The notes under the pieces are model-generated. The model saw nothing but the letters and a program-made list of their open reading frames with translations. It ran no database searches and was not told where the DNA came from. A stretch of DNA of 64,000 bases. It comes from a virus. The stretch is taken from positions 124,001 to 188,000 of the IMG/VR virus record IMGVR_UViG_3300032285_004054; one strand, written 5' to 3'. Positions 29,643-63,250 of this stretch are shown here, in pieces. The position numbers and the translations under genes are program-made. How positions within the stretch are numbered: the stretch's first letter is position 1; each line of letters opens with the position of its first letter.

Positions 29643-30989
29643 TTATGTTAATTGCTCTTCTAGCTTTTGTAATGCATTTTGAGCTTCAGATACTGCTAAT
29701 TGAGGATTGTCTGTGCTAAAGAAATCAGGGTTAGTTTCAGTAAGAGTTAAGGTTTCATATTTAACCTTAAACGCACAATGACCGTAATTAGCGCCGAATC
29801 TGTTTTTAGTCATACCGAGCTTAATAACACCTAATTCTTTATCTTCATCTTCTTGCCAAAGCGAGCAAATAACATCACAGGTTGCAGCAAGACCAATACT
29901 CTCAGAAATGCCTTCCATACCTGGAGAAGATGTATTAAAAGCACCTCGATTAAGCTGCGATGCAGTAACAAACGGTATATTATATTTGAATGCTAGTGCA
30001 CGTAATTGCTCTGCAATCTCTTTTACAGTTTCGTACGAGTTTTGGTTCTTTGTAGTTGGTTTAAGCAAGTTGATATAATCAATTACAACTACATCGGGTT
30101 TAAAATTATGATGTTGTAGTTTTGTCATATAACCGTCAATTTGACGCACGGTTACAGTTTTAGGAGGAAACTCCTTAATAACAAGCTTACTATCTAGCTG
30201 TGCTTTAATATTACGTACCTGATCTTTAAGTTCATCAGTATACATTTTTAATTCGTTGTGCGGTATCTGAGTAATCTGAGCACTAACCCTCTTAGCATAC
30301 ATATGCTCAGACATTTCAAGAGATATAAGAAGTACGTTCTTGTTTCTAAGAACATAATTAGCTGCTATATTACCTAAGAAAATACTCTTACCAATATTAA
30401 CTTGACCTACTAAACAGTAGAGAGATTTAGGAAATAACCCACCTTCTATTTTCTCATCAAGAAACTTCCAACCTGTAGGAATAGGGTTATATATGGTGGT
30501 TAGCTCTTTAATATGTTCATCAATATCGTCAAAATACCAATGACCTAAATTCTCTGTTAAACTTATATTATAAGCTTTTTCAAATTGTTGTAAGATTTCT
30601 GCAGTGTCAGCTTTACCTTGTGCAAACTTATCTGCAGTATCAACAATAGTGTTATACAGACAACGCTCTTTTAAGAAATGCTCTGTATTAGCAAGCAATT
30701 CGTCTCGATTAAACTTATTATCGATACGCTTTAACTTATCTGCTACCTCGTTAAACGCTCTCTTCTCTTCATCAGAAGTTAAGCGAGTTTTAATTTCAGT
30801 GTGATTAGGTACTGCACCTCTTTCGGTAAAGAAAGAGGTTACTACCTTAAAAATAGTAGCGATATTTTTATCACTAAAATACGTAGGATCTACGTATTCT
30901 ATAATAGTAGAGAGATATTCCTGACTTACTAACGAATTATATAGAATGATATTTTCGTAATAGTCAAGGTCGAGTTTGCTATTAGACAT
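29643..30989 (-). CDS. Replicative DNA helicase, gp41/DnaB-like
   Basis: 448 residues (T4 gp41, 475). RecA-fold domain: Walker A CLVGQVNIGKS (about 193-203), helix and EMSEHMYAKRVSAQ, Walker B DVVVIDYINLL, and H3/H4 segments PFVTASQLNRGAF and EGISESIGLAATCDVICSLWQ. The N-terminal 150 residues are the helical collar. Hexameric 5'-3' helicase unwinding ahead of the polymerase and binding primase (57385-58386). It overlaps uvsX by one base (stop/start TAATG). Confidence 0.93.
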   Translation of the reverse strand: MSNSKLDLDYYENIILYNSLVSQEYLSTIIEYVDPTYFSDKNIATIFKVVTSFFTERGAVPNHTEIKTRLTSDEEKRAFNEVADKLKRIDNKFNRDELLANTEHFLKERCLYNTIVDTADKFAQGKADTAEILQQFEKAYNISLTENLGHWYFDDIDEHIKELTTIYNPIPTGWKFLDEKIEGGLFPKSLYCLVGQVNIGKSIFLGNIAANYVLRNKNVLLISLEMSEHMYAKRVSAQITQIPHNELKMYTDELKDQVRNIKAQLDSKLVIKEFPPKTVTVRQIDGYMTKLQHHNFKPDVVVIDYINLLKPTTKNQNSYETVKEIAEQLRALAFKYNIPFVTASQLNRGAFNTSSPGMEGISESIGLAATCDVICSLWQEDEDKELGVIKLGMTKNRFGANYGHCAFKVKYETLTLTETNPDFFSTDNPQLAVSEAQNALQKLEEQLT

Positions 30990-32095
30990 TAGCTATCGAT
31001 ATTATCGACTTCCTCTTCGAGATCTACTGTAGAACTCGTACCGTAACAAAGTTTTTCTTGAAGAGCCTTTTCAATGTCTGGCATAATCTTTTCCCAGAAT
31101 TTAGCATCCTTTTCAAGATCTTTACGGTAACCAAGGCTTTCACCTTTATACAAAACAGTACGACCTGGCTTCTCAATAACTCCAAAAGCTTCTGCAATCT
31201 CAAAAAGACCAGCATGCTTATCAAGACCTGTCTTAAAGTTGAGATACAACTCAGTTTTAAGGTAAGAAGGCACAAAGCGGTTTTTTACTGTTAATGCACC
31301 TAGTGTAACACCTGAGATGTTGTGAGCAATAGCTACAGACTCTTCATTTGGATTATCACTCGCTTTTTCATTACGGGTGCTAAGTTGTACAAGCACAGAA
31401 GCAAGATAGATCGGGCCTTTACCACCGCTCTGTGTTTTAACAAGTGTCGGAAACATTTCCATGCCTTCATAGATATGGTTACTAAAGAGAATAGGTACTT
31501 TAGCTTTAGCAGCTTTATACGTAAGAATACGCATCATTGATTTAATAGCTTTTGCTCTTTGTCCTACATCTGCTGCATCCTTACCGGCTGCGGAATCTTT
31601 AATTTCTTTAGCACTAGCTAGATTACCTAGTGAATCAATAGCTACAATAAATTTTAAATCGGGGTTATTAGCCTTGATAACGTTATCAAGGAATGCGCAC
31701 ATTTGATTACGACAATCTTCAATTGTCTCAACAGGGTAATACTTAACTCGGGAAGTATCCATACCAGCGCCTTCAGCACTTTTCTTATCTACGGCAACCT
31801 CAGAGTCCCAAATAACAGGGATATAACCTTTCTTCTGAGCGTTAGCCATAATCTTATTCATAATAAGGGTTTTGCCAGCCATCGAGGGACCAGCAAAACC
31901 CGTAATACGTCCTCCAGGTATACCTTTATACATGGAGCCTGAAATAATAGCATTTAAGGCAAAAGACCCTGTATCGATCCAATCTTCTGCAGTTGATAGA
32001 GTTGCAGCATCGAGTACTGCAGCGTCTGGATTTAAATCATCAACAGATTTAAAAATATCTTTTAAATTCGAGAGGTCGTTTTTGTCTTTTGCCAT
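30989..32095 (-). CDS. uvsX: RecA-like recombinase UvsX
   Basis: 368 residues (T4 UvsX, 391). Walker A GFAGPSMAGKTLIM (about 64-77), Walker B KFIVAIDSLGNLAS (about 140), DNA-binding loop regions AAGKDAADVGQRAKAIKS and GGKGPIYLASVLVQLSTR. Forms presynaptic filaments on gp32-coated ssDNA for recombination-dependent replication and repair. Partners UvsY (47870-48319) and UvsW (46422-47870) are also in the window. It has a sigma70-like promoter just upstream. Confidence 0.95.
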   Translation of the reverse strand: MAKDKNDLSNLKDIFKSVDDLNPDAAVLDAATLSTAEDWIDTGSFALNAIISGSMYKGIPGGRITGFAGPSMAGKTLIMNKIMANAQKKGYIPVIWDSEVAVDKKSAEGAGMDTSRVKYYPVETIEDCRNQMCAFLDNVIKANNPDLKFIVAIDSLGNLASAKEIKDSAAGKDAADVGQRAKAIKSMMRILTYKAAKAKVPILFSNHIYEGMEMFPTLVKTQSGGKGPIYLASVLVQLSTRNEKASDNPNEESVAIAHNISGVTLGALTVKNRFVPSYLKTELYLNFKTGLDKHAGLFEIAEAFGVIEKPGRTVLYKGESLGYRKDLEKDAKFWEKIMPDIEKALQEKLCYGTSSTVDLEEEVDNIDS

Positions 32096-32540: not shown

Positions 32541-33470
32541 CTACTGCCCCATTGCTTTATTTGTGTATTTGTTCACGTTGAACAAAGCTTCGGGTAGTAG
32601 ATCGGCTCTAGAAGCTCTTGCAGGATTAATATCCAGTGAACCTCTACGGGAGTAAAGAAGAGTAACACAGCAATCAGTTACTTCAGGATGCTTCATAATA
32701 GTTGTAAATAGTTTCTCAGCACAAAACTCATGAAATTCATTAACTTCACGGAGAGATACAATCTGCTTAAAAAGAGACTCCGGATCAACTGCCATGCCGT
32801 CTTTTGTCTTAATAAGAATATATGCTGCACCTGTATCCTTCTGTTTAGTATGACGGCAACGTGAACGAAGAGCATTAGTAAACCAGCGACTTGTTACGGG
32901 CTGATTGTCTTCTGGATGCAACTTATAAAACTTAAGATGATCTACCTGAGAGGAATAGTCAGTTATTTCAATAGAATCTGCTTTACCGTAGAGTTCCCAA
33001 TAAAGATCGAGATATTCATCTTCGAACGCATTATACGAATTTACATCTGAACCTGACGGAAAGAAGCAAACATGTACAGGTGTCTGTAGAGCAGCTTCAA
33101 GATCTTTCTTAACTTGCTCTTCGTAGTTAACGATAGCTTCCTTAATAGAACTACCCATCTTACACATATCAAAAGAATTGAGATAGAGTTTAGCAGACTT
33201 TGACTCTACCATAAACTTTGACTCAGCAGGGTATGTATACTTTAACGTACCTGCTACAGGGTAGCCGTTATCGAGGAGAAATGTTGCTTCGTGGCAATGC
33301 CATGTATCAAAACCGACAAATTCATTGCCGGTAATACCGTGATCAGCTCTCGCTAATTCTCTTGGCATTGGATTAAGCAATGATGGATCAAATTGCTCGG
33401 TATAAATTGCGTACGAAGCTGAAGATCCAAGTGTCTTCGACGCAATATCAGTTAGGTTTGTTGTACTCAT
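32541..33470 (-). CDS. queF: NADPH-dependent preQ0 reductase QueF, bimodular type
   Basis: Reduces 7-cyano-7-deazaguanine (preQ0) to 7-aminomethyl-7-deazaguanine (preQ1). 309 residues, the two-module form (E. coli 282). QueF motif ESKSAKLYLNSF is at 89-100. Catalytic C205 and D212 keep the exact Cys-x6-Asp spacing of E. coli C190/D197, and FHE (246-248) matches the His-Glu pair. RRGSLDINPARASR (275-288) is the C-terminal substrate/NADPH segment. It is last in a four-gene coupled operon after dpdA, the formyltransferase and a P-loop kinase. Its presence implies that the DNA base is preQ1 or a derivative rather than archaeosine or preQ0. Confidence 0.93.
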   Translation of the reverse strand: MSTTNLTDIASKTLGSSASYAIYTEQFDPSLLNPMPRELARADHGITGNEFVGFDTWHCHEATFLLDNGYPVAGTLKYTYPAESKFMVESKSAKLYLNSFDMCKMGSSIKEAIVNYEEQVKKDLEAALQTPVHVCFFPSGSDVNSYNAFEDEYLDLYWELYGKADSIEITDYSSQVDHLKFYKLHPEDNQPVTSRWFTNALRSRCRHTKQKDTGAAYILIKTKDGMAVDPESLFKQIVSLREVNEFHEFCAEKLFTTIMKHPEVTDCCVTLLYSRRGSLDINPARASRADLLPEALFNVNKYTNKAMGQ

Positions 33471-34027
33471 AATTCGTAAGGGTTGTTATATTCGTATTTT
33501 TGTGTTTCCCAGCGTTCAATAGAATTAAGCACTTGCATAACTCTATTTTCAACTGAACCTGAAATTCTAATAACAGGAACTTTATACGATTGTATAATAG
33601 CTTGAAACGATTGCACTACACATTCAAAGAAATCTCTATTAACAGTTCGTTGACCGTCTTCTACTAACGGCAATTCCGGTTCAACATAAAAAATAATATC
33701 ATATCTATCAATCATTGCATAAAACAATTCTCTAATAGCACTCAGCACTTTTAAGTCTTTAACCAAAGACATTGAGTATGCATAACCATCTAAAGCACAA
33801 CGATCGTAAATAATATTACCGTCTTCATTAAGACGCTGAAGATGTTTAGTCATAATAGCTAATTGAGTTACCTCATCACCATCCTCATTTATATTATAAC
33901 CTGCCTCCTGCATACCTCTTGTTAAAGAAGTTTTAAAAGAAAAATCATCTAATAAACCGCTATCTTGTAACGCATTTACAAGAGTAGTTTTACCTTGACT
34001 ATGAGCTCCTGAAATAGCTACCTTCAT
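33467..34027 (-). CDS. P-loop NTPase/kinase in the queF operon (AAA_28-like)
   Basis: 186 residues. Walker A GAHSQGKTT (7-15) near the N-terminus, Walker-B-like IIYDRCALDGYAYSM, IIFYVEPELPLVEDGQRTVNR as the lid-like segment. The architecture is that of small nucleoside/nucleotide kinases of the NadR/AAA_28 type. ATGA overlaps at both ends couple it to the formyltransferase and queF. A paralogue at 55151-55780 shares the G-x-H-x-x-G-K-T-T and D-R-C-x-L-D-x-x-x-Y motifs and is coupled to queE. Substrate unknown; a modified deoxynucleotide or a 7-deazaguanine intermediate is inferred from context only. Confidence 0.8.
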   Translation of the reverse strand: MKVAISGAHSQGKTTLVNALQDSGLLDDFSFKTSLTRGMQEAGYNINEDGDEVTQLAIMTKHLQRLNEDGNIIYDRCALDGYAYSMSLVKDLKVLSAIRELFYAMIDRYDIIFYVEPELPLVEDGQRTVNRDFFECVVQSFQAIIQSYKVPVIRISGSVENRVMQVLNSIERWETQKYEYNNPYEL

Positions 34028-34563
34028 GCTGAATATAATAACCTCTTATTCAAAAATGTAAACCATAAATTTGTAGCATCCTTATGAAGTTTTTCTAAAA
34101 CTTCAAACTCAAGTACCCCTTCTATAAGAATTGTACTATACTCTTCTATTTTACCGCCATCAAGTTCGGCAGTACAGCGATGAATTGTATTACCTGACCA
34201 TTTCTGAAGTTCTTGTACAGCTCTTTTTTGAGGGTCCTTGCCTTTAAGATGAGGATGAAGCAAGAGATTAGCAGGATGTAGATTATATATTTCATACTCT
34301 TCACATATTTCACCCGGTATAATCCTCAACCATCCGTGTAACGTAACGAATGCGTTTTTAGGTATATGATGTTTATACTCTTCTATAGAAGGCGATTTAC
34401 TAATTTGAAAAATTCTAGCTCCAAACTCGTTAATAAGTTTTTGATTAACGCCGTTTAAATCCTGTCTATTGGTTATAATAAGATCAGGTGTACGGTTAAG
34501 TTTCTTTGAAAGATTGTAAATCTCACTACCTGTTTGACTAAAAAAAGTTACCCAAGGTCTCAT
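34024..34563 (-). CDS. Formyltransferase-fold enzyme in the queF-dpdA operon
   Basis: 179 residues with the PurN/methionyl-tRNA formyltransferase catalytic fold. N-terminal SQTGSEIYNLSK and PDLIITNR match the first strands; LHGWLRIIP corresponds to the formyltransferase GxxRIxP; YNLHPANLL gives N94 and H96; TIHRCTAELDGGKI gives D135. This is the full Asn-His-Asp triad used with 10-formyl-tetrahydrofolate. The protein lacks the FMT tRNA-binding C-terminal domain and is slightly shorter than PurN. Coupled by ATGA to dpdA and the P-loop kinase. Likely target: the aminomethyl group of preQ1, in DNA or before insertion. This is inference. Confidence 0.8.
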   Translation of the reverse strand: MRPWVTFFSQTGSEIYNLSKKLNRTPDLIITNRQDLNGVNQKLINEFGARIFQISKSPSIEEYKHHIPKNAFVTLHGWLRIIPGEICEEYEIYNLHPANLLLHPHLKGKDPQKRAVQELQKWSGNTIHRCTAELDGGKIEEYSTILIEGVLEFEVLEKLHKDATNLWFTFLNKRLLYSA

Positions 34564-35414
34564 GATACGAACGTACAGAGCTTTTTAAATACGTGTGTGT
34601 TGTACAAAACATCAGTAATTTGTTCAGATGTTAATGTAGAGCTAATAAAATCAACAAGCTTTACTGACCATTTTTCATCTAATCCTCTAAGAAGACCGTA
34701 ACGCTTACCTAAGATAGCTGCAACAATTGGGTTCGATGTGTCAATTGTTTCAATACATTTAAGATTTTGAAATCCAAACTCCCAGGGTACACTACATCCT
34801 AGTAGATGATGAGGTTTATCATGATTAATAATGCCGTCTCTATACAACCTTTCAATAAGACATATACGACCTAAAGCATAATTTGACCATTTATTAAATT
34901 TAAAATCTTTTAAAACGTCAGGTATCATATCTCCCCAGTCAAGTTCCTTTTGAACGCTCGCAAGATCAGGCCATTCGTTAAGATAAAAACTATAATCGAA
35001 TGAAATAGCGATCTTATCTGCTATACTCGACATAAAACGATAACATTTTACAATCTCCTCATATGTCTTACCTTGAACAACACCTATTGTCTTACCTGGT
35101 AGTACAGAATATTTCTCAGTAAATTTTGCGTAGCTTTCGATTGTTTCTTCAGTATTTTCAAGTACATCTGGTACAATGTATTCAGTTGGTTTAAGACGAG
35201 ATACCCAATAAGCGAATTCGTCAGAATCATATGCTGTACCTAACTCAAAAATTGAGTTGTCAAGAAGAACATGTCTGCCTTCTTTAACTGAATCTTCAAA
35301 GAACTTATAATATTCAGGATGCTCTTTAAATAGATGTACAAGCGCATAATCATAATCATTATAAGATTTTGATACATCTAGGAAAGATATAGGTGTCTCG
35401 TGGCTAATTAACAT
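34560..35414 (-). CDS. dpdA: DpdA-like tRNA-guanine transglycosylase family DNA transglycosylase
   Basis: 284 residues, TGT-like TIM barrel without the zinc-binding C-terminal cysteine cluster, as in phage DpdA. The catalytic acids fit D52 (LLDNSIFELG) and D225 (ETIDTSNP). VPDVLEN, GVVQG and HHLLGCSVPWEFGF give the substrate-pocket strands. DpdA exchanges guanine in DNA for a 7-deazaguanine, protecting phage DNA from restriction. First gene in the four-gene operon. Which 7-deazaguanine is used is not decidable from DpdA itself, but QueF next to it favours preQ1. Confidence 0.85.
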   Translation of the reverse strand: MLISHETPISFLDVSKSYNDYDYALVHLFKEHPEYYKFFEDSVKEGRHVLLDNSIFELGTAYDSDEFAYWVSRLKPTEYIVPDVLENTEETIESYAKFTEKYSVLPGKTIGVVQGKTYEEIVKCYRFMSSIADKIAISFDYSFYLNEWPDLASVQKELDWGDMIPDVLKDFKFNKWSNYALGRICLIERLYRDGIINHDKPHHLLGCSVPWEFGFQNLKCIETIDTSNPIVAAILGKRYGLLRGLDEKWSVKLVDFISSTLTSEQITDVLYNTHVFKKLCTFVS

Positions 35415-38215: not shown

Positions 38216-39469
38216 TCAAGATAATTTTGGATTTGTCTCAAGAAGATATGTTCTTTCATTAGAACCAAACGGCGTAAAATATGCTTCGTGATGTTTTCCG
38301 AGATTCTTTTCATCTTCAAGCCAGTAGTTATCAGTAAACGCACGTGACTTCTTACAAAGATCAGCATAACGAGTTTGATCTTTAAGAGCATATTTAATTT
38401 GATCAATAAACTCATCACCTGTCTTATACTTTAAGAGAGCATCCTTATATGTTACCATATCTGGACAAACACAAGGTAGACCCATTGCTCCTGCTTCTAA
38501 TAATTTAATATTAGATTTAGCACGATTAAAATTATTATCTTGTAGGGCAGCGAATGTTAGCTGTGTACCTGACTCTGCCATAGAAGCCGGGAAGTCTGGT
38601 AACTGTACCCACTCCTTGTAAATAATTTCACCTGAATCAACAAACGGTTTTAACGGTAGGGGGTAGCAACCGTAAAACTGCCATTGATAATCCTTACGGG
38701 TCTTCATTACAGCATTAACTACATGTGCAAAATCGTCTGCTTGATTAACACGGTTAACTACGTCTACGTGTGTACCTGAAGCAAAAATTGAAATAACGGG
38801 TTTCTTTTTATTCTTTTCGTATCCTTTGATAAGCTTATCGAGGTTGTAATAGCGATCAAACCACCATTTCAATAGATAGTTCGGTATTACAGTCGTAGCT
38901 TTATTACCTGTTTTCTCAATAAAATAATCTCTCATGAAATCACATGTAACAGTAACCTCATCACACATGTTCATAATATCGAGAATAGATCCTCGAATCT
39001 CATCGCTCGTAAATGCATCTTTATTACGGTTGTAATCTGGAATATCTTCTCTAAAGACAATATCGTCGATTTCGTAAATAAGCTTAAAGCCGTTTTGCTT
39101 GGAAAGCTCTTTAAGAACTTTAACAAACTCTTTTTGAATTGGTGTTGCCTGGCGTTGAATTTTAACTGCCTGAATGCCCTGATAAAATCTAGGATCCAGA
39201 ACCATCGTTGTTAATTCTAACACAACAGCTTTATTATAGAGATTAAGCATGGAGTTAGGAGCCATACAACGATAAAAACTACAGCCACCGTAATCAGCTA
39301 AATAATTTACAGCTCTTGGTAGATTTGCCCCAGGTATTTCAGGTGGAGGTAATTCAAAAGAACCTCTTGTAGGTACAGCACAAAATGTTGAAGGCATACC
39401 TAAAGGTAGGCCAACAGGTGCACCTATTGTTGTGTCTAAGCTAGTTCGTACGAGATTATAGTTGCTCAT
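38216..39469 (-). CDS. Glycosyltransferase, GT4-like (GT-B fold)
   Basis: 417 residues. N-terminal domain: YLADYGGCSFYRCMAPN; the interdomain strand and second Rossmann domain PVISIFASGTHVDVVN, DYQWQFYGCYPLP and IKLLEAGAMGLPCVCPD. The last is the GT4 E-x-x-x-G-x-P-x-V donor motif. Acts on an unknown acceptor; T4-type phages glycosylate DNA, other phages glycosylate fibres. It overlaps gp46 by 14 bases and is followed by the polymerase gene. Part of the glycosyltransferase island around gp46/gp47. Confidence 0.75.
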   Translation of the reverse strand: MSNYNLVRTSLDTTIGAPVGLPLGMPSTFCAVPTRGSFELPPPEIPGANLPRAVNYLADYGGCSFYRCMAPNSMLNLYNKAVVLELTTMVLDPRFYQGIQAVKIQRQATPIQKEFVKVLKELSKQNGFKLIYEIDDIVFREDIPDYNRNKDAFTSDEIRGSILDIMNMCDEVTVTCDFMRDYFIEKTGNKATTVIPNYLLKWWFDRYYNLDKLIKGYEKNKKKPVISIFASGTHVDVVNRVNQADDFAHVVNAVMKTRKDYQWQFYGCYPLPLKPFVDSGEIIYKEWVQLPDFPASMAESGTQLTFAALQDNNFNRAKSNIKLLEAGAMGLPCVCPDMVTYKDALLKYKTGDEFIDQIKYALKDQTRYADLCKKSRAFTDNYWLEDEKNLGKHHEAYFTPFGSNERTYLLETNPKLS

Positions 39470-41267
39470 TGTTGTTTAATATATATGTAAAACCGTTTCT
39501 TTTTTCAAGCTGAATAATACTATCAACTTTACTGTTAATAGCGTTACTACGATGTGTTATAATATAACATCCTTCATTATATTTTTCAAGACGTTCACGT
39601 AATACTTTCATTACTAATTCAACACCTTTGTCGTCTAAAGAGGAATCGAGTAGTTCATCATAAAAAATAGTACTAAAATTAATATCGCCCTGTAAGCGTC
39701 TAATGTCTAGAAAAGCAAATAAACAGGCGAGGTCAATTCTTTTACGTTCACCACCAGAGAAGTTAAAATAAGATTTAACTTCGTTATTTTCATCGATAAT
39801 TTGCTCATCAAAAAACTCGTTAAACTGACATAAGCAATTTGCATGTAGTGCATTTAAGTAGTGAGCTAATCTAGCATTCAATAGCTTTAATATTTTTTTT
39901 ACAATATAAGCTTTAACTCCTTCCTCTGAAACAACAAATTTAACACTATCCAATACGTTTAAATTTAAATCTAACGCATCTATTTGTTGGATGTAGTTAT
40001 TTTGCTCTATTGTTAAATTTTTAACGTTTTCTTCTAAAGAAGTGTTAGTTTCTTGTTTAACAGATTCGATATCTCTTAGAATCTCGTTATTACTTTCTTC
40101 AATAATATTAAGCTTATTTGTACAGATAATATTTTTATTTTTAAGATCTTTAATCTTATCTTTTTTATCTTGTAGTTCTCTAAATTGCTGTTTAATATAC
40201 TTAATGTTTTCTTTAACATTATCGTATTGCTCTTGCCACTTGCTTACGTTTTTAGTGTACTGTACTTCTTTTTCTTTTAACTTATTAATAGCATCAGTTC
40301 TATGTGTCGTATCTTCTTCAGAGTATGGTCGTTGACACAGCTTACACGATGAACCTACCTTTTCAATCTCTTTAATATTGTTAATATTTGTTTCTAATTC
40401 GAACTTAGCAGTAGTTAACTGCTGTAATGTATTTGTATGCTCAGTATCTGCTGCAACTTGAAGCTCGTTTAGTTCTGTTTCTTTATTTGAAATAAGCTCT
40501 TCAATATTTACTGGTACATCAATTATACTATTTTTAAGTAGGGTATAATTGCTGTTATTGTTTTCAATTTTAACCTCAAGATCTTTTATTTTGTTTTGTT
40601 TATTAACATTGAACTGATTAAGTTGTACTAGATTAAATTCAAGAGTTTTATCAATTGTTGTTTTTTTAGCAAAAACTACATCATACTCTCTCTTCAACTC
40701 ATTGTATTGCTCTCTAGCTTTTAAAAGCATCTCTGAAAACACTTCTAGATTAAGCGTGCTTTCGATAAATTTTCGTTTATCAACTTTAGACTGTGCCATA
40801 AAAGGTACAGTATTATTAATCGTCATTACAACAGTATTTTGAAATATTTTGCTAGTAGAGTTTACTAACTGTTGTATATACTCGTTTGTTTTAGGTAAAG
40901 TTGAACGCGTGACATCAACACCATCTTTTAAGATGGAACATTTTGTAGGTCCTAAGGACCGTGTTACGGTATAATTGTTTGTTATACCGTTTACGCTTAT
41001 TTGTAATTCGAGTTTAACTTCGCAATGTTTTTTATTATAAGAGTTAACAATAAGATCTTTACTTAGTTCTCTAATCGTTGAACCGAATAACGCAAAATGC
41101 AATGCATCGACGACTGTCGATTTACCTACACCGTTTTTAGAATCTTCCTTATCGTAGTTAATGCCTGTAATGACATTAATACCTGATTGAAAGTTAATAA
41201 CTATCGGTTCACTACCTACCGATAGAAAATTACGAACTGTAAGTGTTTTAAAGCTTATTACCCGCAC
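39456..41267 (-). CDS. Recombination endonuclease ATPase subunit, gp46/SbcC-like
   Basis: 603 residues (T4 gp46, 560). Walker A region DSKNGVGKSTVVDALHFALFGS (about 40-61), long heptad-rich coiled coil (about 175-470) interrupted by the zinc hook CKLCQRPYSEE, and the C-terminal ABC signature SGGERKRIDLACLFAF with Walker B IFYDELLDSSL. Works with the gp47 nuclease in end resection and recombination-dependent replication. Its gene is separated from gp47 by a methyltransferase and four glycosyltransferase-like genes, instead of adjoining it as in T4. Confidence 0.92.
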   Translation of the reverse strand: MRVISFKTLTVRNFLSVGSEPIVINFQSGINVITGINYDKEDSKNGVGKSTVVDALHFALFGSTIRELSKDLIVNSYNKKHCEVKLELQISVNGITNNYTVTRSLGPTKCSILKDGVDVTRSTLPKTNEYIQQLVNSTSKIFQNTVVMTINNTVPFMAQSKVDKRKFIESTLNLEVFSEMLLKAREQYNELKREYDVVFAKKTTIDKTLEFNLVQLNQFNVNKQNKIKDLEVKIENNNSNYTLLKNSIIDVPVNIEELISNKETELNELQVAADTEHTNTLQQLTTAKFELETNINNIKEIEKVGSSCKLCQRPYSEEDTTHRTDAINKLKEKEVQYTKNVSKWQEQYDNVKENIKYIKQQFRELQDKKDKIKDLKNKNIICTNKLNIIEESNNEILRDIESVKQETNTSLEENVKNLTIEQNNYIQQIDALDLNLNVLDSVKFVVSEEGVKAYIVKKILKLLNARLAHYLNALHANCLCQFNEFFDEQIIDENNEVKSYFNFSGGERKRIDLACLFAFLDIRRLQGDINFSTIFYDELLDSSLDDKGVELVMKVLRERLEKYNEGCYIITHRSNAINSKVDSIIQLEKRNGFTYILNNNEQL

Positions 41268-41303
41268 ATGAATATTGTATATGATACATTAATCATTGCT
41301 ACT

Positions 41304-41912
41304 TTATTTTTTTACAATGTATGATGTAATACTTTGTCCGTTGTTTGTTGAATATACTTCACAAAATTCTATTTGGTTTTTTAAATTCAAAATTTGTTCT
41401 TCGGTTACATAAAAATTTTTATAATCTGAACAGTTAATGTTTTTAATATCTTTTAAAAGGCTTAAAGTTGTGCTTTCTGTTTTAGTTTCTAATAGACTTG
41501 TGTGTAAATCTTCTAATATGTAAATTCCTCCGCTTTTAAGTCTGTTAAAAATATTAACTATTGATACTTGCTGCTGAAGCATCGTATGACCTCCATCATC
41601 TATTATAAGGTCAAATTCTACTCCGTTAAAAACACTCTGTAAAAAATTAATATCTGTTTGATCGCCCTGTTCAATTACAATACGATCCTCTTGTAGGTAT
41701 TTTCGATCTTCTATATCGAAACCGTATATTGTTGCTTTTGGAAAGTATTCTTTCCACATACGTAACGATTGGCCTAAGAAAACACCTATTTCTAAAATAG
41801 AAGTGTAAGTATTTCTAAAATTTGAAAGTTTTTCATTATATATTTGTGTAAAGTGATGGTTTACAGCTTTATCTGTACTACATTTTAGTCCTATTTCAGT
41901 TAATATGTCCAT
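41304..41912 (-). CDS. Class I SAM-dependent methyltransferase
   Basis: 202 residues. Motif I is SILEIGVFLGQSLRMW (residues about 38-53), motif II IYGFDIEDR, and motif IV-like FDLIIDDGGHTMLQQQ. The IDDGGH box is found in O-methyltransferases acting on sugars or macrolides (TylF/CmcI-type). It lies in the same minus-strand run as four glycosyltransferase-like genes. Methylation of a transferred sugar is a reasonable inference; DNA methylation is less likely because DPPY-type motifs are absent. Confidence 0.75.
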   Translation of the reverse strand: MDILTEIGLKCSTDKAVNHHFTQIYNEKLSNFRNTYTSILEIGVFLGQSLRMWKEYFPKATIYGFDIEDRKYLQEDRIVIEQGDQTDINFLQSVFNGVEFDLIIDDGGHTMLQQQVSIVNIFNRLKSGGIYILEDLHTSLLETKTESTTLSLLKDIKNINCSDYKNFYVTEEQILNLKNQIEFCEVYSTNNGQSITSYIVKK

Positions 41913-41915
41913 AAA

Positions 41916-42623
41916 TTATACTATTTTTGTAAATCCTTCGGTGTTCCATTTTCTATAAAATACTTCTTGAGCATCAAGAAGTTTCTTTCTTACCTGATCT
42001 GATGTCTCTTCAGATTCGGGTTTATTTAGCCCGTGTTCAATTTGGGATGCTGTATTTAAAGCATGCGGTAATTTGTTTGCCTGTAGACAGCGTTCATAAT
42101 CGTTATCTTGAAAATAAAAATCAAAACGCTCATCAAATTTACCAATAATATCAAAAACCTGTTTACGCATAAACAAACAAAAACCTAATAAAAATTTTGT
42201 TGTTTCATAACCAAAATATAAAGTATTATCTTCTGGGAAATCATTATATGTATTTCTATGCCAGGAACGATCTACCGGGCTTGCAGACATGAGAGTGTTA
42301 ATTTTATTAAACGCAAATACCATGTTCTCAAGGCATTTTGGTTTTGTTATAACATCGTTATTTGAAATACAAATAAACTCTGATGTACAGTATGTCAAAG
42401 CTATATTAAGAAATTTGTTGTAATTGAAATCGTAAGGCGGTACAACACTAATAATTTTATTAGAAATATTTTTCCAAATAGAGTTATCAAAGTCTTTATT
42501 ACTCTCAACCAGAATAATATTATTAATATACTGTTCTTCTTTAAGGTAAGACGTAATACATCTTAATACCATTTCATAATACTCACTATTTTTTGTATAT
42601 GTAAGTATAATAATATCGATCAT
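41916..42623 (-). CDS. Glycosyltransferase family 2-like protein
   Basis: 235 residues, GT-A fold. N-terminal IIILTYTKNSEYYEMVLRCI, metal/donor motif EFICISNNDVITKP, then FLLGFCLFMRKQVFDIIGKFDERFDFYFQDND, the acceptor region characteristic of GT2 enzymes. The C-terminus GLNKPESEETSDQVRKKLLDA is charged. It overlaps the next upstream gene by four bases (ATGA) and is tied to it in translation. Substrate unknown. Confidence 0.75.
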   Translation of the reverse strand: MIDIIILTYTKNSEYYEMVLRCITSYLKEEQYINNIILVESNKDFDNSIWKNISNKIISVVPPYDFNYNKFLNIALTYCTSEFICISNNDVITKPKCLENMVFAFNKINTLMSASPVDRSWHRNTYNDFPEDNTLYFGYETTKFLLGFCLFMRKQVFDIIGKFDERFDFYFQDNDYERCLQANKLPHALNTASQIEHGLNKPESEETSDQVRKKLLDAQEVFYRKWNTEGFTKIV

Positions 42624-43339
42624 AGAGTTATACCTTCGAGGTGTTTTGTTTCTTGTGCGTATATACGCTGTACGTGCTGACCATGCATTAATATACCGAC
42701 ATTATTATGTGTTGCAGTACTACTTACGTCTATATCTTCATCCTTTTCGCCGTATTTACTAACATGCCAGGACATACCTTCGTAGTGTTTATATAGTACT
42801 CCGCTACCGTTATAGTTACCAATTTTTAATTTATGTTTTCTAATATCTTCGAAAAACGAAGAACCGATATCGTATCTCTTTTCTCCTCTACTCTTTTGTC
42901 TTTCAATATCAAAGAAATTAATATTATGATCTTTTACATGCTTAACGTTTATAAAACAATGCCAAGGATGTACTCTATTATATAGTTTTTTACCTGCACG
43001 GTCTCCTACTATTTCTCCCATTAGTGTTAAATCCATCTCTTTAAATTGTCTAAAGATTTCATCATGATTTGATAGAAAAATAACATCCGTATCTACTAGT
43101 AAAGCATAATCTGTTTTTACGTTTTTAAGTAAAATATCAACCGAAGGTCCGTGTATACCTCCTTTATTTTCAACAAATGGTATATTTGCTCTTTTGAGAA
43201 TATCTTTTGTAAGATTATCTATAGAATTTTCACATATTAATATATTACATTCTGGGTGAAACGCTCTAAATGTTTTTAACATATTAGACGTAACAACAGG
43301 AGTGTTATATGAGCAAGATATAAGAGTTAAATTATCCAT
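42620..43339 (-). CDS. Glycosyltransferase (GT-A type)
   Basis: 239 residues. LISCSYNTPVVTSNMLKTFRAF is the first Rossmann unit and YALLVDTDVIFLSN carries the D-x-D motif that binds metal and sugar nucleotide. WHCFINVKHVKDHNINFF and GSGVLYKHYEGMSWHVSKY follow in the acceptor domain. Overlaps its neighbours by 4 and 8 bases. Its role in the cluster is inferred; no product is known. Confidence 0.7.
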   Translation of the reverse strand: MDNLTLISCSYNTPVVTSNMLKTFRAFHPECNILICENSIDNLTKDILKRANIPFVENKGGIHGPSVDILLKNVKTDYALLVDTDVIFLSNHDEIFRQFKEMDLTLMGEIVGDRAGKKLYNRVHPWHCFINVKHVKDHNINFFDIERQKSRGEKRYDIGSSFFEDIRKHKLKIGNYNGSGVLYKHYEGMSWHVSKYGEKDEDIDVSSTATHNNVGILMHGQHVQRIYAQETKHLEGITL

Positions 43340-44141
43340 TTTGCTTATAAATTTCTTTTAAGGATTTTTTTACTAAATCAAGCGGGGTATCAGGTATGCC
43401 ACCAGGTACGGTGCCATGCTTTTTAACAAAAATTTCATCAGCTGCTCTAACTATAGTTTGATGATCGCTTCTTGAACTAATTGTACTTGTTTGAAGAGTC
43501 CAAGGAATATCCTCTAGGTATTGATTTGAGTTTGCAATATCTGCAAAATACCAGAATGGCGGATGCATTCCTTTTTGTATAATTCTATAAGTGTGTTCTA
43601 CGTGTTCACACGCGTTAAAAAATAACTCATCAATTAACCCTACTTCTTCAAGACACTTACGCGTATAAAAAGAAAACGCACCCACACAATGTGGATATAA
43701 TGCAATTGAAAGATCCTCTGAATAGCTTATAACAGTTCTAGGGTTAGGGGTTTCGGATCTAAACATTTTATTCATAAGTCCGTGCTGACTATAATTAAAA
43801 TGCTGTATACCTGTGCCTTTTGAAGCATCTATATATCTCTGAAAAACACTTTCATCCTTAATAAGGATATCATCTTCTATTAAGAAAATGTAATCGCAAC
43901 CTTTTTCTAATAAAAGCTTTGTAGCATCATTTTTACTAATACCAACACCCTTATTGGTTTTATGCTGTATTAATGTAAAATTATCTTTATTCGGGTATAG
44001 ATCATCACTGTAAGGCGTACCGTCATTTACAACTACAACATGTTGTATCTTATCAACAGGTATAGTTTTAAAACTCTTTTTAAAGTAATTCTCTCTATTG
44101 TATGTTACAATACCTATACCTATTTTATTATTTGTTTCCAT
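43332..44141 (-). CDS. Glycosyltransferase family 2-like protein
   Basis: 269 residues. IGIGIVTYNRENYFKKSFKTIP, QHVVVVNDGTPYSD, DYIFLIEDDILIKDES (the acidic EDD motif) and ALYPHCVGAFSFYTRKCLEEVGLIDELFFNACEHVEHTYRI give a standard GT2 GT-A fold. It overlaps both flanking genes (8 and 14 bases). One of four adjacent glycosyltransferase-like genes; donor and acceptor unknown. Confidence 0.8.
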   Translation of the reverse strand: METNNKIGIGIVTYNRENYFKKSFKTIPVDKIQHVVVVNDGTPYSDDLYPNKDNFTLIQHKTNKGVGISKNDATKLLLEKGCDYIFLIEDDILIKDESVFQRYIDASKGTGIQHFNYSQHGLMNKMFRSETPNPRTVISYSEDLSIALYPHCVGAFSFYTRKCLEEVGLIDELFFNACEHVEHTYRIIQKGMHPPFWYFADIANSNQYLEDIPWTLQTSTISSRSDHQTIVRAADEIFVKKHGTVPGGIPDTPLDLVKKSLKEIYKQNG

Positions 44142-44787
44142 TTTTAATTTCTTTTAGTTGTGGTTTAAGATCGTCAATACTAGGTATTAGCTGATCCCAG
44201 GGTAGTACATTATATTTGTATTTGTACCAGCCACTAGAGTACATCTCTAGAGTTTGTTTAGCAACTTTATCGTCCTTTTGAACGATATCAAATAACCAGG
44301 GTGTAGTCTTATCAATACTTGAAGGGTATAAGTTTGTACTTCCTAATCTAATTGCATAATCCATTGAGCATAATGAATCGTTAAGTCTTACATCTAAATA
44401 ACCAATTTTATCTATTGCTTGTCTTGTAAAAACCTCTAAAACAACTTTTTGCTCGCTACCGTTGCTTACATTTATCTTAACACTACCATAATCTATAACA
44501 GTACCTGTTTTAAGAGGCCCTGTGAGGTAGTTGATACCAGTTGAAATAATAGTATTTACGTACTGTTCAGCTACAATTCTCAATGAATTAACAGATAAGG
44601 GAGGTAGTTCATTGTTTGTGTTGTATATAACAAAATACTGATACTGTTCGTTATCAATAAAGCGTCGTAGAAAGCTATTTTTAGTAGCGGTAACATTTTT
44701 ACCTATAGAGGAAAAAAATATACCTGGTTCTTCTTCATTTTGAAGAGATGGCTTTGTAATAATACCAATTGCTATTTGATTATTCAT
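44128..44787 (-). CDS. Divergent glycosyltransferase-like protein
   Basis: 219 residues. AIGIITKPSLQNEEEPGIFFSSI at the start and QAIDKIGYLDVRLNDSLCSMDYAIR late resemble GT2 proteins (the KIGYLD box of the acceptor domain). A clear D-x-D is absent, so it may be inactive, metal-independent or only structurally related. It overlaps gp47 by 8 bases and the next gene by 14. Called from its context and the C-terminal box. Confidence 0.5.
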   Translation of the reverse strand: MNNQIAIGIITKPSLQNEEEPGIFFSSIGKNVTATKNSFLRRFIDNEQYQYFVIYNTNNELPPLSVNSLRIVAEQYVNTIISTGINYLTGPLKTGTVIDYGSVKINVSNGSEQKVVLEVFTRQAIDKIGYLDVRLNDSLCSMDYAIRLGSTNLYPSSIDKTTPWLFDIVQKDDKVAKQTLEMYSSGWYKYKYNVLPWDQLIPSIDDLKPQLKEIKNGNK

Positions 44788-53613: not shown

Positions 53614-54132
53614 ATGTCTCAATACACATCTACTAAATTAATCGAGCTAGGCTCTTGTGCTTTTCGTCAATGGCGTGCTACCCACAGTCATTGCCAATAT
53701 ATTCACGGATATCGCTTAATGGCTAAGTTTTGGTTTGGTTGTGATTCTCTTGATGAGAAGAACTGGGCAGTTGACTTTGGAGGTCTTAAGGAGCTTAAGA
53801 AGATTCTTAACAATCAGTTTGACCACACCCTTTGTGTTGCTCAGGATGACCCTCTCCTAGAGGAGTTTAAGAAGCTAGATGATATTGGAGGTGTTCAACT
53901 CCGTATTATGGAATCAGTCGGTGTTGAAAAAACAGCCGAATGGTGCTTTAAAACAGCTAATGAGTTTGTAAAAAACCTAACACAGAATCGTTGCTGGGTA
54001 GAGAGTGTTGAAGTGTTCGAACACGAACAGAATTCTGCTATCTATTCTAAAGAAGATTTAACACTTAAAATAACACCTTCAGTAACTTCAACATCAAATA
54101 CATTTTATGCCTCAGACCGACCAGGAGTCTAA
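53614..54132 (+). CDS. queD: 6-carboxy-tetrahydropterin synthase-like protein (QueD)
   Basis: Converts dihydroneopterin triphosphate to 6-carboxy-tetrahydropterin. 172 residues. Catalytic C27 and the zinc region are visible as THSHCQYIHGYRL; H31 aligns with a zinc His of E. coli QueD, but the H33 position is Tyr33. H24 or H26 may substitute. FDHTL gives D70-H71, identical in numbering to E. coli. NWAVDFGGLKELKKIL is the family's DFxxLK motif. The C-terminal 20 residues overlap the next gene by 26 bases. The HGY variant looks like a real subfamily but needs alignment to be sure of activity. Confidence 0.85.
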   Translation: MSQYTSTKLIELGSCAFRQWRATHSHCQYIHGYRLMAKFWFGCDSLDEKNWAVDFGGLKELKKILNNQFDHTLCVAQDDPLLEEFKKLDDIGGVQLRIMESVGVEKTAEWCFKTANEFVKNLTQNRCWVESVEVFEHEQNSAIYSKEDLTLKITPSVTSTSNTFYASDRPGV

Positions 54133-54323: not shown

Positions 54324-55154
54324 ATGGAAAATAATACATTAGAAATTTCAGAGCACTTCTACTCCGTACAATGTGAAGGTATCTCCACAGGTGTACCGGC
54401 GTATTTTATTCGTTTGAAAGGTTGTAATCTATCCTGTGGTTTTTCAGGTAAAGCTATTGTAGATCTTAAGCGTAATCTTGAAGAAGTTGAAGGTTATGTA
54501 GTAGGTGGTAATATAACTGGTGATTTACACAGTGAAGGTAAGGCAACATGGACATGTGATTCAGCACCTGTCTGGCTCAGAGGTGCTCATACTACATACG
54601 AGCAGCTAGTACAATCTTGGGTTGATCAAGGTATCCTAGATTGGATTCTAGATGGTACAATTCATCTTATCTGGACAGGAGGTGAACCTACAATACCTAA
54701 GCATCAAAAAGCAATTGTCGGTTTCTTGAAGTGGTTTGCTGACAAATATAAAACAGAAAAAGTTTATAGTGAGATTGAAACTAACGGTTCAATTGTTATT
54801 GAAGATAGTCTTCTTACTTGGCTAGATCAGATTAATTGCTCGGTTAAGCTTCATAATTCAGGCATGGATAAAGATAAGCGTATTAATGAACAGGCACTTC
54901 GCCGTATTAAGCTTCATCGCAATTATTCATTTAAGTTTGTAATCTCTGACGAGGAAGATTTAGTAGAAATTATTAGAGATTTTGTAGTACCTTTTGAAAT
55001 ACCTACTAACAGAATCTGTATGATGCCCGGACTAGATAGTCAAGAACATTACCATGAAAGGACACGTTTTGTTTTAGAGATGGCTAAGAAGTATGGTTTT
55101 AGAGGTTTATCACGTTTACATATTAGTGCTTGGGATCAAGCAACAGGTGTATGA
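54324..55154 (+). CDS. queE: 7-carboxy-7-deazaguanine synthase (QueE), insertion form
   Basis: Radical SAM enzyme turning 6-carboxy-tetrahydropterin into CDG. 276 residues. The cluster motif is split: C34 and C38 (GCNLSCGF) and the third Cys is C78 (TWTCDS), giving C-x3-C-x39-C rather than C-x3-C-x2-C. The sequence between them (about 40-75) is a charged Gly-rich insertion. FYSVQCEGISTG, HLIWTGGEPTIPK and EIETNGS are the other family motifs. It precedes the P-loop kinase by a 4-base ATGA overlap. The split loop occurs in some QueE subfamilies, so activity is likely. Confidence 0.88.
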   Translation: MENNTLEISEHFYSVQCEGISTGVPAYFIRLKGCNLSCGFSGKAIVDLKRNLEEVEGYVVGGNITGDLHSEGKATWTCDSAPVWLRGAHTTYEQLVQSWVDQGILDWILDGTIHLIWTGGEPTIPKHQKAIVGFLKWFADKYKTEKVYSEIETNGSIVIEDSLLTWLDQINCSVKLHNSGMDKDKRINEQALRRIKLHRNYSFKFVISDEEDLVEIIRDFVVPFEIPTNRICMMPGLDSQEHYHERTRFVLEMAKKYGFRGLSRLHISAWDQATGV

Positions 55155-55780
55155 AAATTGCTATAATAGGTACACATTGTAACGGTAAGACAACTCTTAT
55201 TGAGGAATTTCTAAAGCGCTGGCCAATGTATAAGAAGCCAGCGAAGACGTATAGAGATTTCTTAAATGATAAGAAAATAAAAATTAATCAAAAAGGCACT
55301 AAAGAGAGCCAGAGAGCGATACTTGATGCACTTATTGATGAAGTACAAACGGCTTGCGGATCAGGAGATGAGTTTCTTATCTTTGATCGTTGTGTATTAG
55401 ACAATCTTGTTTATTCACTTTGGCTTAATGCAAAAGGTAAAGTTGATGATAACTTTATTATGGATTGTAAGTTTCTAGTATCTGAAACAATTAAGCTTTT
55501 TGATATTATCTTTTACATACCTTTAAGAGAAGAAATTAAATTAGAGAAGAGAAAACATAGAGATATTGACCCTGTTTATCGAGAGGAAATTGATAATATA
55601 TTCTCAGCGGTTATTGGTACATATCTTACTGGGTCAGGTATTTTCTTTCCGTTAAGTGATTGCCCGGCTGTTATTGAAATTGAAGGTCCGCCGGATCTAA
55701 GATGCGATCAAATACAGCTCTATATTAAAGATACAGGAAAAACGTATACAGAGGAAGATCCATCGTTAATTTATACATAA
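55151..55780 (+). CDS. P-loop NTPase/kinase coupled to queE
   Basis: 209 residues, start ATG 55151 chosen because it overlaps queE by ATGA and places the Walker A IIGTHCNGKTT (5-15) at the usual distance. FLIFDRCVLDNLVYSL is the Walker-B-like region; IIFYIPLREEIKLEKRKHRD the Arg/Lys-rich lid. It resembles the operon kinase at 33467-34027 (G-x-H-x2-GKTT and DRC-x-LD-x2-Y). Two paralogues, each coupled to a queuosine-pathway gene, suggest a common nucleotide or nucleoside substrate, but none is known. Confidence 0.8.
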   Translation: MKIAIIGTHCNGKTTLIEEFLKRWPMYKKPAKTYRDFLNDKKIKINQKGTKESQRAILDALIDEVQTACGSGDEFLIFDRCVLDNLVYSLWLNAKGKVDDNFIMDCKFLVSETIKLFDIIFYIPLREEIKLEKRKHRDIDPVYREEIDNIFSAVIGTYLTGSGIFFPLSDCPAVIEIEGPPDLRCDQIQLYIKDTGKTYTEEDPSLIYT

Positions 55781-61153: not shown

Positions 61154-62312
61154 CTGAAAAACCAATAATTCTTTTTTCACTCTTAACGTCACCATGTACG
61201 TTTTCTACTTCGGCATTGTAAATTTCAGCCAAAGACATAGGCTCTGTAACTTTAACTTTAAGCTTCATCTTCTTAACAAGCTTTTGTGCTGTTTTTACAG
61301 AAAGTTTATCAAATTGATATTCTTTCTTAAGTCTTCCCTTACGTAAGAGAGCTTGATCGAGTTCATGTCTCGGGTTATTGTAAGTTGCAATAATTGAGAT
61401 ATTAAAAATATCCCCCATCATACCGTCTGTAAGGTTTAGAATAGTAGAAACTAGGGACGATTGATCACCACCCTCTCTTTGAAGAAGTGCTTTCTCAGCA
61501 TCTTCAATAATTAGAATACTAGATTTTTTATCAAGAAGTGCAGGTAGAAAGGACGGATCAACAATTGCATCAATAAAGTTTGTCGGTACGTAAATCATAT
61601 TACGCTTAACAACTGATGAAAGGTATTTGATATAAGTTGTCTTACCTGTACCAGGGTCGCCATGAAACAAATACAAACCGCTTTTGTTCTTGTTTAACTC
61701 TTCAACGATCTCATCATGCACTTTTTCTAATTCTGGCTCATAATGAGTTGTAATATCATATGTTTCAGGTAAAACAACTTCAAAAGGTTCAAAATTAAAA
61801 CCACTAGCTGTTTTTATAATTGTATGAATTACAGCTTTATAATTTGGTTTATAGATAAATTCTTCAAAGTCTTCTAAAGGCGGACGAACACCTGGAGGAT
61901 GATAAAAACGTAGAACATAATACTGTTCTTTAGTGTTATTAACACTTCTTTGTTCAGCCATTTCAATTTCAATAACAATATTTTCTTTGTATAGATATGT
62001 ACCTCTGTATTGTGCATCCCCATCTTCTTCCCACGTTAAACCTCCGTCATCTACATAACCTGAAGCTCCTTTACTAAGTTCATTAGGTACAAAAATCCAA
62101 TCAGAAATTAGCTTACCTTTTTCTTTAATTATTTCTACTGCATTAAAACTATATTGAAATGAAGAGTTGTACACACAAGGACAGCATTTAAATCTTTCCA
62201 TAAAGAAAGATCCAACAGGCAATATATGGGTTGTGTGACTTTTTGTAAAAAAATCATGAGACTTATCAAAGATTAAAGGATCGCCGTCTCCTGAGATGGT
62301 AATTTTTTTCAT
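61146..62312 (-). CDS. BCS1-like AAA ATPase
   Basis: 388 residues. N-terminal domain (about 1-190) of beta-rich sequence, then AAA core: Walker A FHGDPGTGKTTYI (about 213-225), Walker B SILIIEDAEKALL, sensor-1 ISIIATYNNPRHELDQALLRKGRLKKEYQF with the arginine-finger RKGRL. Bcs1-type ATPases move or remodel proteins; phage relatives with an N-terminal non-AAA domain are known but their roles are not. It overlaps the IMPDH/GMPR gene by 4 bases. No membrane anchor is visible. Confidence 0.85.
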   Translation of the reverse strand: MKKITISGDGDPLIFDKSHDFFTKSHTTHILPVGSFFMERFKCCPCVYNSSFQYSFNAVEIIKEKGKLISDWIFVPNELSKGASGYVDDGGLTWEEDGDAQYRGTYLYKENIVIEIEMAEQRSVNNTKEQYYVLRFYHPPGVRPPLEDFEEFIYKPNYKAVIHTIIKTASGFNFEPFEVVLPETYDITTHYEPELEKVHDEIVEELNKNKSGLYLFHGDPGTGKTTYIKYLSSVVKRNMIYVPTNFIDAIVDPSFLPALLDKKSSILIIEDAEKALLQREGGDQSSLVSTILNLTDGMMGDIFNISIIATYNNPRHELDQALLRKGRLKKEYQFDKLSVKTAQKLVKKMKLKVKVTEPMSLAEIYNAEVENVHGDVKSEKRIIGFSVE

Positions 62313-63250
62313 TTTAATGTAACGTAGTTGATATACTTTAAGGACGATAAATCATTACCGCCAGCGTAACTTATAGAAGACTGTAGTGACTGTTTAATTT
62401 CTGCTAAACGTTGCTCAAGGGTAACTCCCTGCTCAAGCTCTAACAGCGTACCTTCAATATGTTTATTTTCTTTCTTTGCTGAAAAACTTGCAGAACCAAA
62501 ATACACTTTACGTCCATTTACAGTAGGAGCAGGAGAATCAGCACATGATGCAAATAATGAACCTGCCATGGTTATTGTAGCACCAGCGGAAATAGCTTTA
62601 GCAATATCACCGTAATATCTAATACCTCCATCTGCAATAATAGGAATACATGCTTCCTTGGCACAATTTTGTACAGCCGTGAACATCGGTATATGAAAAC
62701 CGGTTTGCAGTCTTGTGGTACATGCTCTACCAGGCCCGATCCCTACTTTCAAGGCATTAGCTCCCCAATTAGTTAAATCAGTTACTGCTTCAGGAGTAGT
62801 AATATTACCTGCTATAATAAAAGTATTCGGAAAAAATAGTTTGATATAATCAATCATCCTACGAACTTTTTCGTGATGACCGTGAGCTACATCAATAGTA
62901 ATATAATCGACCCTTAATCTATCATCGTAAATTCTATTTAACTCATCGTAACTATCCTGATTAACACCAGTACTGATACTAATAATATGATGACCTAAAT
63001 CATTAAATTTTAAAACAAACGGGTAGGTAATCTTGTTAAAACGATGCATTACATAAAAGTAATTGTTTAAACTCATCCATCCTGCCCAGTCCTCACTTAT
63101 TACCGTTTCCATATTTGACGGTACAATAGGAAGTTTGAAATTGTAGTTTCCTAATCTTACAGATGTATCAGCTAGAGATCTACTCTCAAGTTGAGAGTAT
63201 TGAGGTACGAGGTAAACATCGTCGTAACAGAGAGCTGGCTTAACATTCAT
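62309..63250 (-). CDS. IMP dehydrogenase/GMP reductase family enzyme without CBS domains
   Basis: 313 residues, single (beta/alpha)8 barrel. Catalytic loop GIGPGRACTTRLQTG has the catalytic Cys (about 186) in the G-x-x-C-T-T-R setting; DDVYLVPQYS at the start, YITIDVAHGHHEKVRRMI and IPIIADGGIRYYGDIAKAISAGA are core motifs. It lacks the CBS pair of IMPDH, and its length and C-terminal repeats SFSAKKENKHIEG/YAGG look more like GMP reductase (GuaC) than IMPDH; the direction is uncertain. It may shift purine pools toward or away from GTP, the substrate of FolE2. It precedes the AAA gene with a 4-base overlap. Confidence 0.82.
   Translation of the reverse strand: MNVKPALCYDDVYLVPQYSQLESRSLADTSVRLGNYNFKLPIVPSNMETVISEDWAGWMSLNNYFYVMHRFNKITYPFVLKFNDLGHHIISISTGVNQDSYDELNRIYDDRLRVDYITIDVAHGHHEKVRRMIDYIKLFFPNTFIIAGNITTPEAVTDLTNWGANALKVGIGPGRACTTRLQTGFHIPMFTAVQNCAKEACIPIIADGGIRYYGDIAKAISAGATITMAGSLFASCADSPAPTVNGRKVYFGSASFSAKKENKHIEGTLLELEQGVTLEQRLAEIKQSLQSSISYAGGNDLSSLKYINYVTLK

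Follow-up and report, generated by a model that had tools for sequence, protein, structure and literature searches.

In 2023, Cui and colleagues reportedly described fdPreQ1, a formylated nucleoside derived from 7-aminomethyl-7-deazaguanine (preQ1), in phage DNA; they are said to have predicted a formyltransferase, DpdN, to have defined a DpdA3 type of DNA guanine transglycosylase with complete replacement, and to have taken insertion by DpdA as post-replicative. Formylated 7-deazaguanine has reportedly been measured in very few phages. Here we analyze a related four-gene cassette, dpdA, a formyltransferase gene, a kinase gene and queF, found in a 64,000-nucleotide stretch (the window) that comprises positions 124001-188000 of the 218,400-base linear virus record IMGVR_UViG_3300032285_004054. 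In our judgment it is quite likely a DpdA3-type cassette for 7-deazaguanine hypermodification of DNA, carried by a large phage, by which the viral DNA would carry formylaminomethyl-7-deazaguanine and in which linked kinases would serve the DpdA step. The reading rests on gene content, predicted folds, catalytic residues and genomic linkage.

The fdPreQ1/DpdN phages reportedly share with the window a preQ1-type base, insertion by DpdA, a formyltransferase of the PurN fold and the proposed product 7-(formylamino)methyl-7-deazaguanine; the window virus is a different, uncultivated one, and its product is predicted. Most likely the product is of an already known kind, and the window represents a further member of this group.

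Three other phage systems were compared with the window. Flavobacterium phage vB_FspM_immuto (NC_055915) has the same order of DpdA, formyltransferase, kinase and QueF, with QueD, QueE and FolE nearby; its annotation names DpdA, QueD, QueE, FolE and QueF, and by tblastn the identities to the window proteins are 46% (DpdA), 41% (formyltransferase), 34% (kinase) and 39% (QueF). Immuto departs from the window in a small extra open reading frame (ORF) between DpdA and the formyltransferase, in having FolE, MazG-type hydrolase and phosphoribosyltransferase genes close to DpdA, and in using a family A rather than a family B polymerase. Campylobacter phages CP220 and CPt10 have a DpdA that is 43-46% identical to that of the window, with a kinase directly downstream, but no formyltransferase or QueF was found in them and their base is amido-7-deazaguanine. 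According to one report (PMC8306585), 100% of the deoxyguanosine (dG) in both phages is replaced by 2'-deoxy-7-amido-7-deazaguanosine (dADG); replacement is given as about 1.7% in Streptococcus phage Dp-1 and about 0.1% or less in Vibrio phage nt-1 in another (PMC6884629). The archaeosine system of Enterobacteria phage 9g resembles the window in combining DpdA with FolE/QueD/QueE/QueC-type genes, but its DpdA belongs to another subfamily and has no kinase partner, and Gat-QueC takes the place of QueF and the formyltransferase (PMC6884629).

Gene order and distribution in related viruses

The cassette consists of four minus-strand ORFs with ATG starts, transcribed in the order dpdA (34560-35414, 284 amino acids), formyltransferase (34024-34563, 179 amino acids), kinase (33467-34027, 186 amino acids) and queF (32541-33470, 309 amino acids). 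Neighboring genes overlap by exactly 4 bases, at 34560-34563, 34024-34027 and 33467-33470. This arrangement, which the first-pass annotation had described along with a possible formylated preQ1 base, was reproduced in full from the ORFs. In a second IMG/VR record of 74 kb, IMGVR_UViG_3300037189_026208 (loci L007/L087), the encoded DpdA and formyltransferase match the window proteins at 100% identity; this record is probably the same virus.

Scans of IMG/VR yielded 509 relatives of DpdA and 293 of the formyltransferase, and the best 80 of each were used; dereplication at 90% DpdA identity left 75 loci, a sample biased towards query-like sequences. The full order DpdA-formyltransferase-kinase-QueF is repeated in 58 of them, so the operon arrangement is not a matter of chance. 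Seven loci have DpdA-kinase-QueF, three DpdA-kinase, and the other seven, partly cut by contig ends, have DpdA-formyltransferase (two), DpdA-formyltransferase-kinase (two) or DpdA alone (three). Among loci with at least 5 kb of readable sequence downstream, 43 carry all four genes, 7 kinase and QueF, 3 kinase alone and 2 none. In this set QueF accompanies the formyltransferase in 43/43 loci, and the formyltransferase without QueF was seen in none, as it should be if the enzyme acts on preQ1. The dependency is nested, the formyltransferase depending on QueF and QueF on the kinase, and its strictness points to preQ1 as the substrate that is formylated. In some loci an intact formyltransferase-kinase-QueF unit lies about 6-7 kb away from DpdA. 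Among annotated phages, homologues of the formyltransferase were found only in four Flavobacterium immuto records; across many uncultivated viruses the cassette is widespread and conserved.

The transglycosylase

Fold and motifs identify the dpdA product. It has no match in Pfam or NCBIfam, and its profile gave a weak match (E 0.19) to a solved DNA-guanine transglycosylase in the Protein Data Bank (PDB). The AlphaFold2 model has a predicted local distance difference test (pLDDT) score of 94.8, and in a Foldseek search of the PDB the best 50 matches listed were all tRNA-guanine transglycosylases (TGTs) of the (beta/alpha)8 fold, the best at E 1.9e-8. The TGT motifs D52 (LDNS), D83, Q114-G115 (VVQG), G206 (LLG) and D225 (DTSNP) are present, with the motif residues conserved in 61-62 of 62 homologues; D52, D83, Q114, G206 and D225 presumably correspond to D102, D156, Q203, G230 and D280 of the Zymomonas mobilis TGT, an equivalence set by motif order and not by structural superposition. 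The immuto homologue is annotated as a DNA guanine transglycosylase, and the degree of identity to the CP220-type proteins suggests that the window DpdA belongs to the DpdA3 type. By analogy with its CP220 homologue, in whose phage all dG is replaced by dADG, it is predicted to exchange guanine in DNA. Isoelectric points did not separate the DpdA family of the window from the 9g DpdA.

A TGT-like fold together with the same precursor pathway would also suit a cassette for queuosine in tRNA, in which QueF and DpdA raise the preQ1 content of tRNA and so boost translation. We consider this extremely improbable, given that the CP220-type homologues come from phages in which the replaced guanine is that of DNA, that the formyltransferase would be left unexplained, and that no TGT-like C-terminal Cys/His zinc motif was seen in the DpdA translations inspected by eye.

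The formyltransferase

The 179-residue protein matches Pfam PF00551 (Formyl_trans_N) above cut-off with E 6e-10, and its family profile finds PurN structures in the PDB at E 1.3e-15 and sugar formyltransferases more weakly. From the letters of the sequence, N94, H96 and D135 had been proposed as the PurN/FMT triad and the tRNA-binding domain had been noted as missing. Both proposals stand: in the profile alignments to PDB structures the three residues coincide with the Asn, His and Asp of the PurN catalytic site and are conserved in 53/53, 53/53 and 52/53 homologues, respectively, and a Pfam search gave no match to the C-terminal tRNA-binding domain. A folate loop, HGWLRI, occupies residues 76-81, with R80 and I81 conserved. 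By these features the protein is a PurN-type relative with intact catalytic triad and folate loop, which we propose to be a preQ1 or deoxy-preQ1 N-formyltransferase like DpdN.

The closeness to solved PurN structures, and the weaker sugar formyltransferase matches, raise the question of whether the enzyme is instead a metabolic PurN, or an N-formyltransferase acting on amino sugars for the glycosyltransferase-like genes at 38216-39469 and possibly 41304-44787, with no connection to the modified base. This is very unlikely in view of the strict linkage to DpdA, kinase and QueF across divergent viruses, the unit remaining intact even where it is removed from DpdA, and of the failure to reach the NCBIfam PurN equivalog cut-off (37.5 against 150 bits). 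On cut-off and linkage, PurN was rejected as the identity of the protein. The glycosyltransferase-like genes form a run on the minus strand (38216-44787) between polymerase and phosphoesterase genes.

When 84,980 prokaryote species genomes were scanned, the formyltransferase was found at only two places, both in metagenome-assembled genomes (MAGs), and it is therefore essentially viral. One of the two, in a Microcoleus MAG contig, is part of a series of consecutive genes (L279:2752-6537), the others being radical SAM, thymidylate-kinase-like, aminotransferase-like and phosphoribosyltransferase-like, perhaps a different pathway.

In relatives of the cassette, a small conserved domain of about 115 amino acids (YPETCxEFKKIQ...DYGPHNIS...NDKIQRL) lies between the formyltransferase or GMP reductase gene and the kinase gene. 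It is separate beside the formyltransferase in L137 (9537-9881), L125, L129, L131, L141 and L153 and fused to it in L143, L149 and L152, and it resembles Pfam Nmad1 below cut-off. The domain also occurs in Microcystis phage Mel-JY01 and the crAss-like phage cr108_1, both of which carry an IMP dehydrogenase (IMPDH)/GMP reductase gene.

QueF and the supply of preQ1

The queF product is predicted to be a full-length, unimodular NADPH-dependent nitrile reductase of 7-cyano-7-deazaguanine (preQ0), with both T-fold halves present. It matches Pfam PF14819 (QueF_N) at E 3.6e-23 and PF14489 at E 2.2e-10, as well as NCBIfam QueF at E 2.7e-51; its score of 174.8 bits is below the equivalog cut-off of 293.5. 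The catalytic residues E89, C205, D212 and H247 are kept in 59/59 sequences, and the ESKSxK motif for NADPH is present.

Genes for earlier steps are encoded elsewhere in the virus. On the plus strand of the window there are a queD-like 6-carboxytetrahydropterin synthase gene (53614-54132; PF01242, E 1.3e-16) and a queE-like gene for a radical SAM 7-carboxy-7-deazaguanine synthase (54324-55154; NCBIfam QueE models, E 1.8e-16 and weaker), and QueC is encoded at position 30265 of the virus record, outside the window (E 2e-66). Directly after queC there is a separate class II glutamine-amidotransferase-like gene (record positions 30948-31589, L172), and such a gene is also found downstream of the cassette in related loci (for example, L041:11785-12402). 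This stand-alone gene may work with QueC as a split Gat-QueC.

Proposed pathway

From the gene content we infer a substrate for the formyltransferase, an order of steps and a protective function. QueD, QueE and QueC, with a GTP cyclohydrolase probably from the host, would produce preQ0, and QueF would reduce it to preQ1. The PurN-like enzyme would formylate the aminomethyl nitrogen of preQ1, with 10-formyl-tetrahydrofolate as the presumed donor, and DpdA would introduce the 7-deazaguanine base into DNA in exchange for guanine, either before or after formylation. The resulting nucleoside would be 2'-deoxy-7-(formylamino)methyl-7-deazaguanosine, a modification that probably protects against host nucleases. 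The formylated preQ1 DNA suggested by the first-pass annotation is thus supported, as far as sequence can predict it, by a TGT-type DpdA, an intact QueF, a PurN-type triad and the presence of QueD, QueE and QueC in the virus.

Several observations weigh against this reading. Sequence profiles of DpdA fail to reach known TGTs, so that its recognition is by fold and motifs only. FolE was not found in a search of the virus's own record; the gene is present in 11 of the 14 related records searched, and either supply of its function by the host or incompleteness of the linear record may explain why it is missing. The two MAG occurrences of the formyltransferase depart from the viral pattern: on a short Clostridiales contig (L280) it accompanies DpdA with no QueF within about 5.9 kb, and in the Microcoleus contig (L279) a relative occurs with no DpdA. 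Finally, QueF and QueF-like amidotransferases are described as hard to separate by sequence in Hutinet 2019 (PMC6884629).

The kinase, its paralogue and GMP reductase

The third gene of the cassette encodes a protein matching Pfam PF13521 (AAA_28; E 1.2e-15) with the motifs GxxxxGKT, TQ, DR and DGxR. Its AlphaFold2 model (pLDDT 87.8) found deoxynucleoside kinase, dTMP kinase and NadR ribosylnicotinamide kinase as best Foldseek matches. Its scores do not reach the cut-off of any named NCBIfam kinase equivalog. It is predicted to have a P-loop nucleoside/nucleotide kinase fold, like NadR ribosylnicotinamide kinase, deoxynucleoside kinase or dTMP kinase.

The first-pass annotation had listed the kinase and given it no role. 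In a scan started from the kinase, DpdA adjoined it in 60/60 loci with at least 2.5 kb of upstream sequence, and the kinase is the most constant partner of the DpdA family of the window. It also occurs with DpdA where the formyltransferase or QueF is missing, as in Campylobacter phage CP220, and therefore serves the DpdA step or its surroundings. With NadR among both profile and fold matches, and the DGxR motif common to the two, a ribosylnicotinamide kinase replenishing the NAD(P)H that QueF uses could be envisaged. We hold this to be highly improbable, the kinase being paired with DpdA without QueF in CP220, L028 and L086. NAD salvage as its role was rejected on the persistence of the kinase without QueF.

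Kin2, another member of this kinase family, is encoded directly downstream of queE (55130-55780, plus strand; PF13521 E 7.7e-12, kinase profile E 2.3e-22). Second copies, always no more than about 4 kb from QueE, were found in 10 of 18 related records, and CP220-type Campylobacter phages also have two. When the same mechanical test was applied to both DpdA groups, a small P-loop ORF was located within 3 kb in 0/5 9g-type DpdA loci as against 62/73 loci of the window's DpdA family. On the minus strand of the window lies a gene for a GuaC-type GMP reductase (62309-63250; NCBIfam NF003966, 370 bits against a cut-off of 344). In 17 loci, or 10 after dereplication, a homologue comes directly after the formyltransferase; many related cassettes have such a gene within the stretch from formyltransferase to kinase, and in other relatives it is found elsewhere in the record. 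GMP reductase points to guanine nucleotide handling, either recycling of released guanine or lowering of a competing pool, and the system, having both kinase and GMP reductase, therefore also manages free nucleotides. The accessible literature gave no match for the kinase, its paralogue and GMP reductase as linked parts, which are a feature of the window and are not known to be part of the fdPreQ1 report. What is new is a small nucleoside-type kinase that travels with DpdA almost everywhere the kinase occurs.

In the reading that we prefer, the kinase and its paralogue would act on a free nucleoside or nucleotide that is required for the DpdA step and not for formylation. Kinase and GMP reductase are compatible with two models, post-replicative insertion with salvage or insertion by way of the nucleotide pool. 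In the second, DpdA would exchange the base of free deoxyguanosine or deoxyguanosine monophosphate, the two kinases would raise the product towards the triphosphate and the polymerase would insert it, a pre-replicative modification in which the formyltransferase acts on the base or the nucleotide. We regard this as unlikely and are equally doubtful of its full form, in which guanine is replaced by preQ1 or its formylated form while on a free deoxynucleoside or deoxynucleotide, GMP reductase keeps down the guanine pool that competes with the product, and synthesis by the polymerase results in a genome with complete substitution.

Much of the above is in its favor: the kinase fold is that of a small-molecule nucleoside or nucleotide kinase, DpdA-kinase pairs are constant and do without QueF or the formyltransferase, the window and ten further records have a paralogue close to QueE and two copies occur in the Campylobacter homologues, many cassettes include GMP reductase or have it nearby, and the 9g-type loci have no small P-loop kinase close by. 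Both immuto and Cellulophaga phage phiST have a MazG-type gene close to DpdA, and an HD-domain-kinase fusion is encoded directly upstream of dpdA in CP220 (L002:6868-7899). The complete replacement in CP220 and CPt10, compared with a few percent or less in Dp-1 and nt-1, would also fit. However, the window virus yielded neither MazG nor HD-type hydrolases, which removal of dGTP from the pool would call for, and these were rare in the relatives searched; complete replacement can in principle be post-replicative. We know of no TGT-fold enzyme that uses free nucleosides or nucleotides, and the published view is reportedly that insertion is post-replicative. The pairing of kinase and DpdA makes it testable whether some phages replace all guanine after replication or through the deoxynucleoside triphosphate pool; if the pool route is true, a DpdA paired with a kinase is a nucleotide-pool enzyme and not a post-replicative editor of DNA.

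In a sister DpdA group, that of the Cellulophaga phiST type, dpdA is preceded by another kind of small P-loop kinase-like gene (PHROG 19196; L003:7481-7978, L004:5507-5977 and L198:5532-5999). This gene would be a second kinase that pairs with a DpdA.

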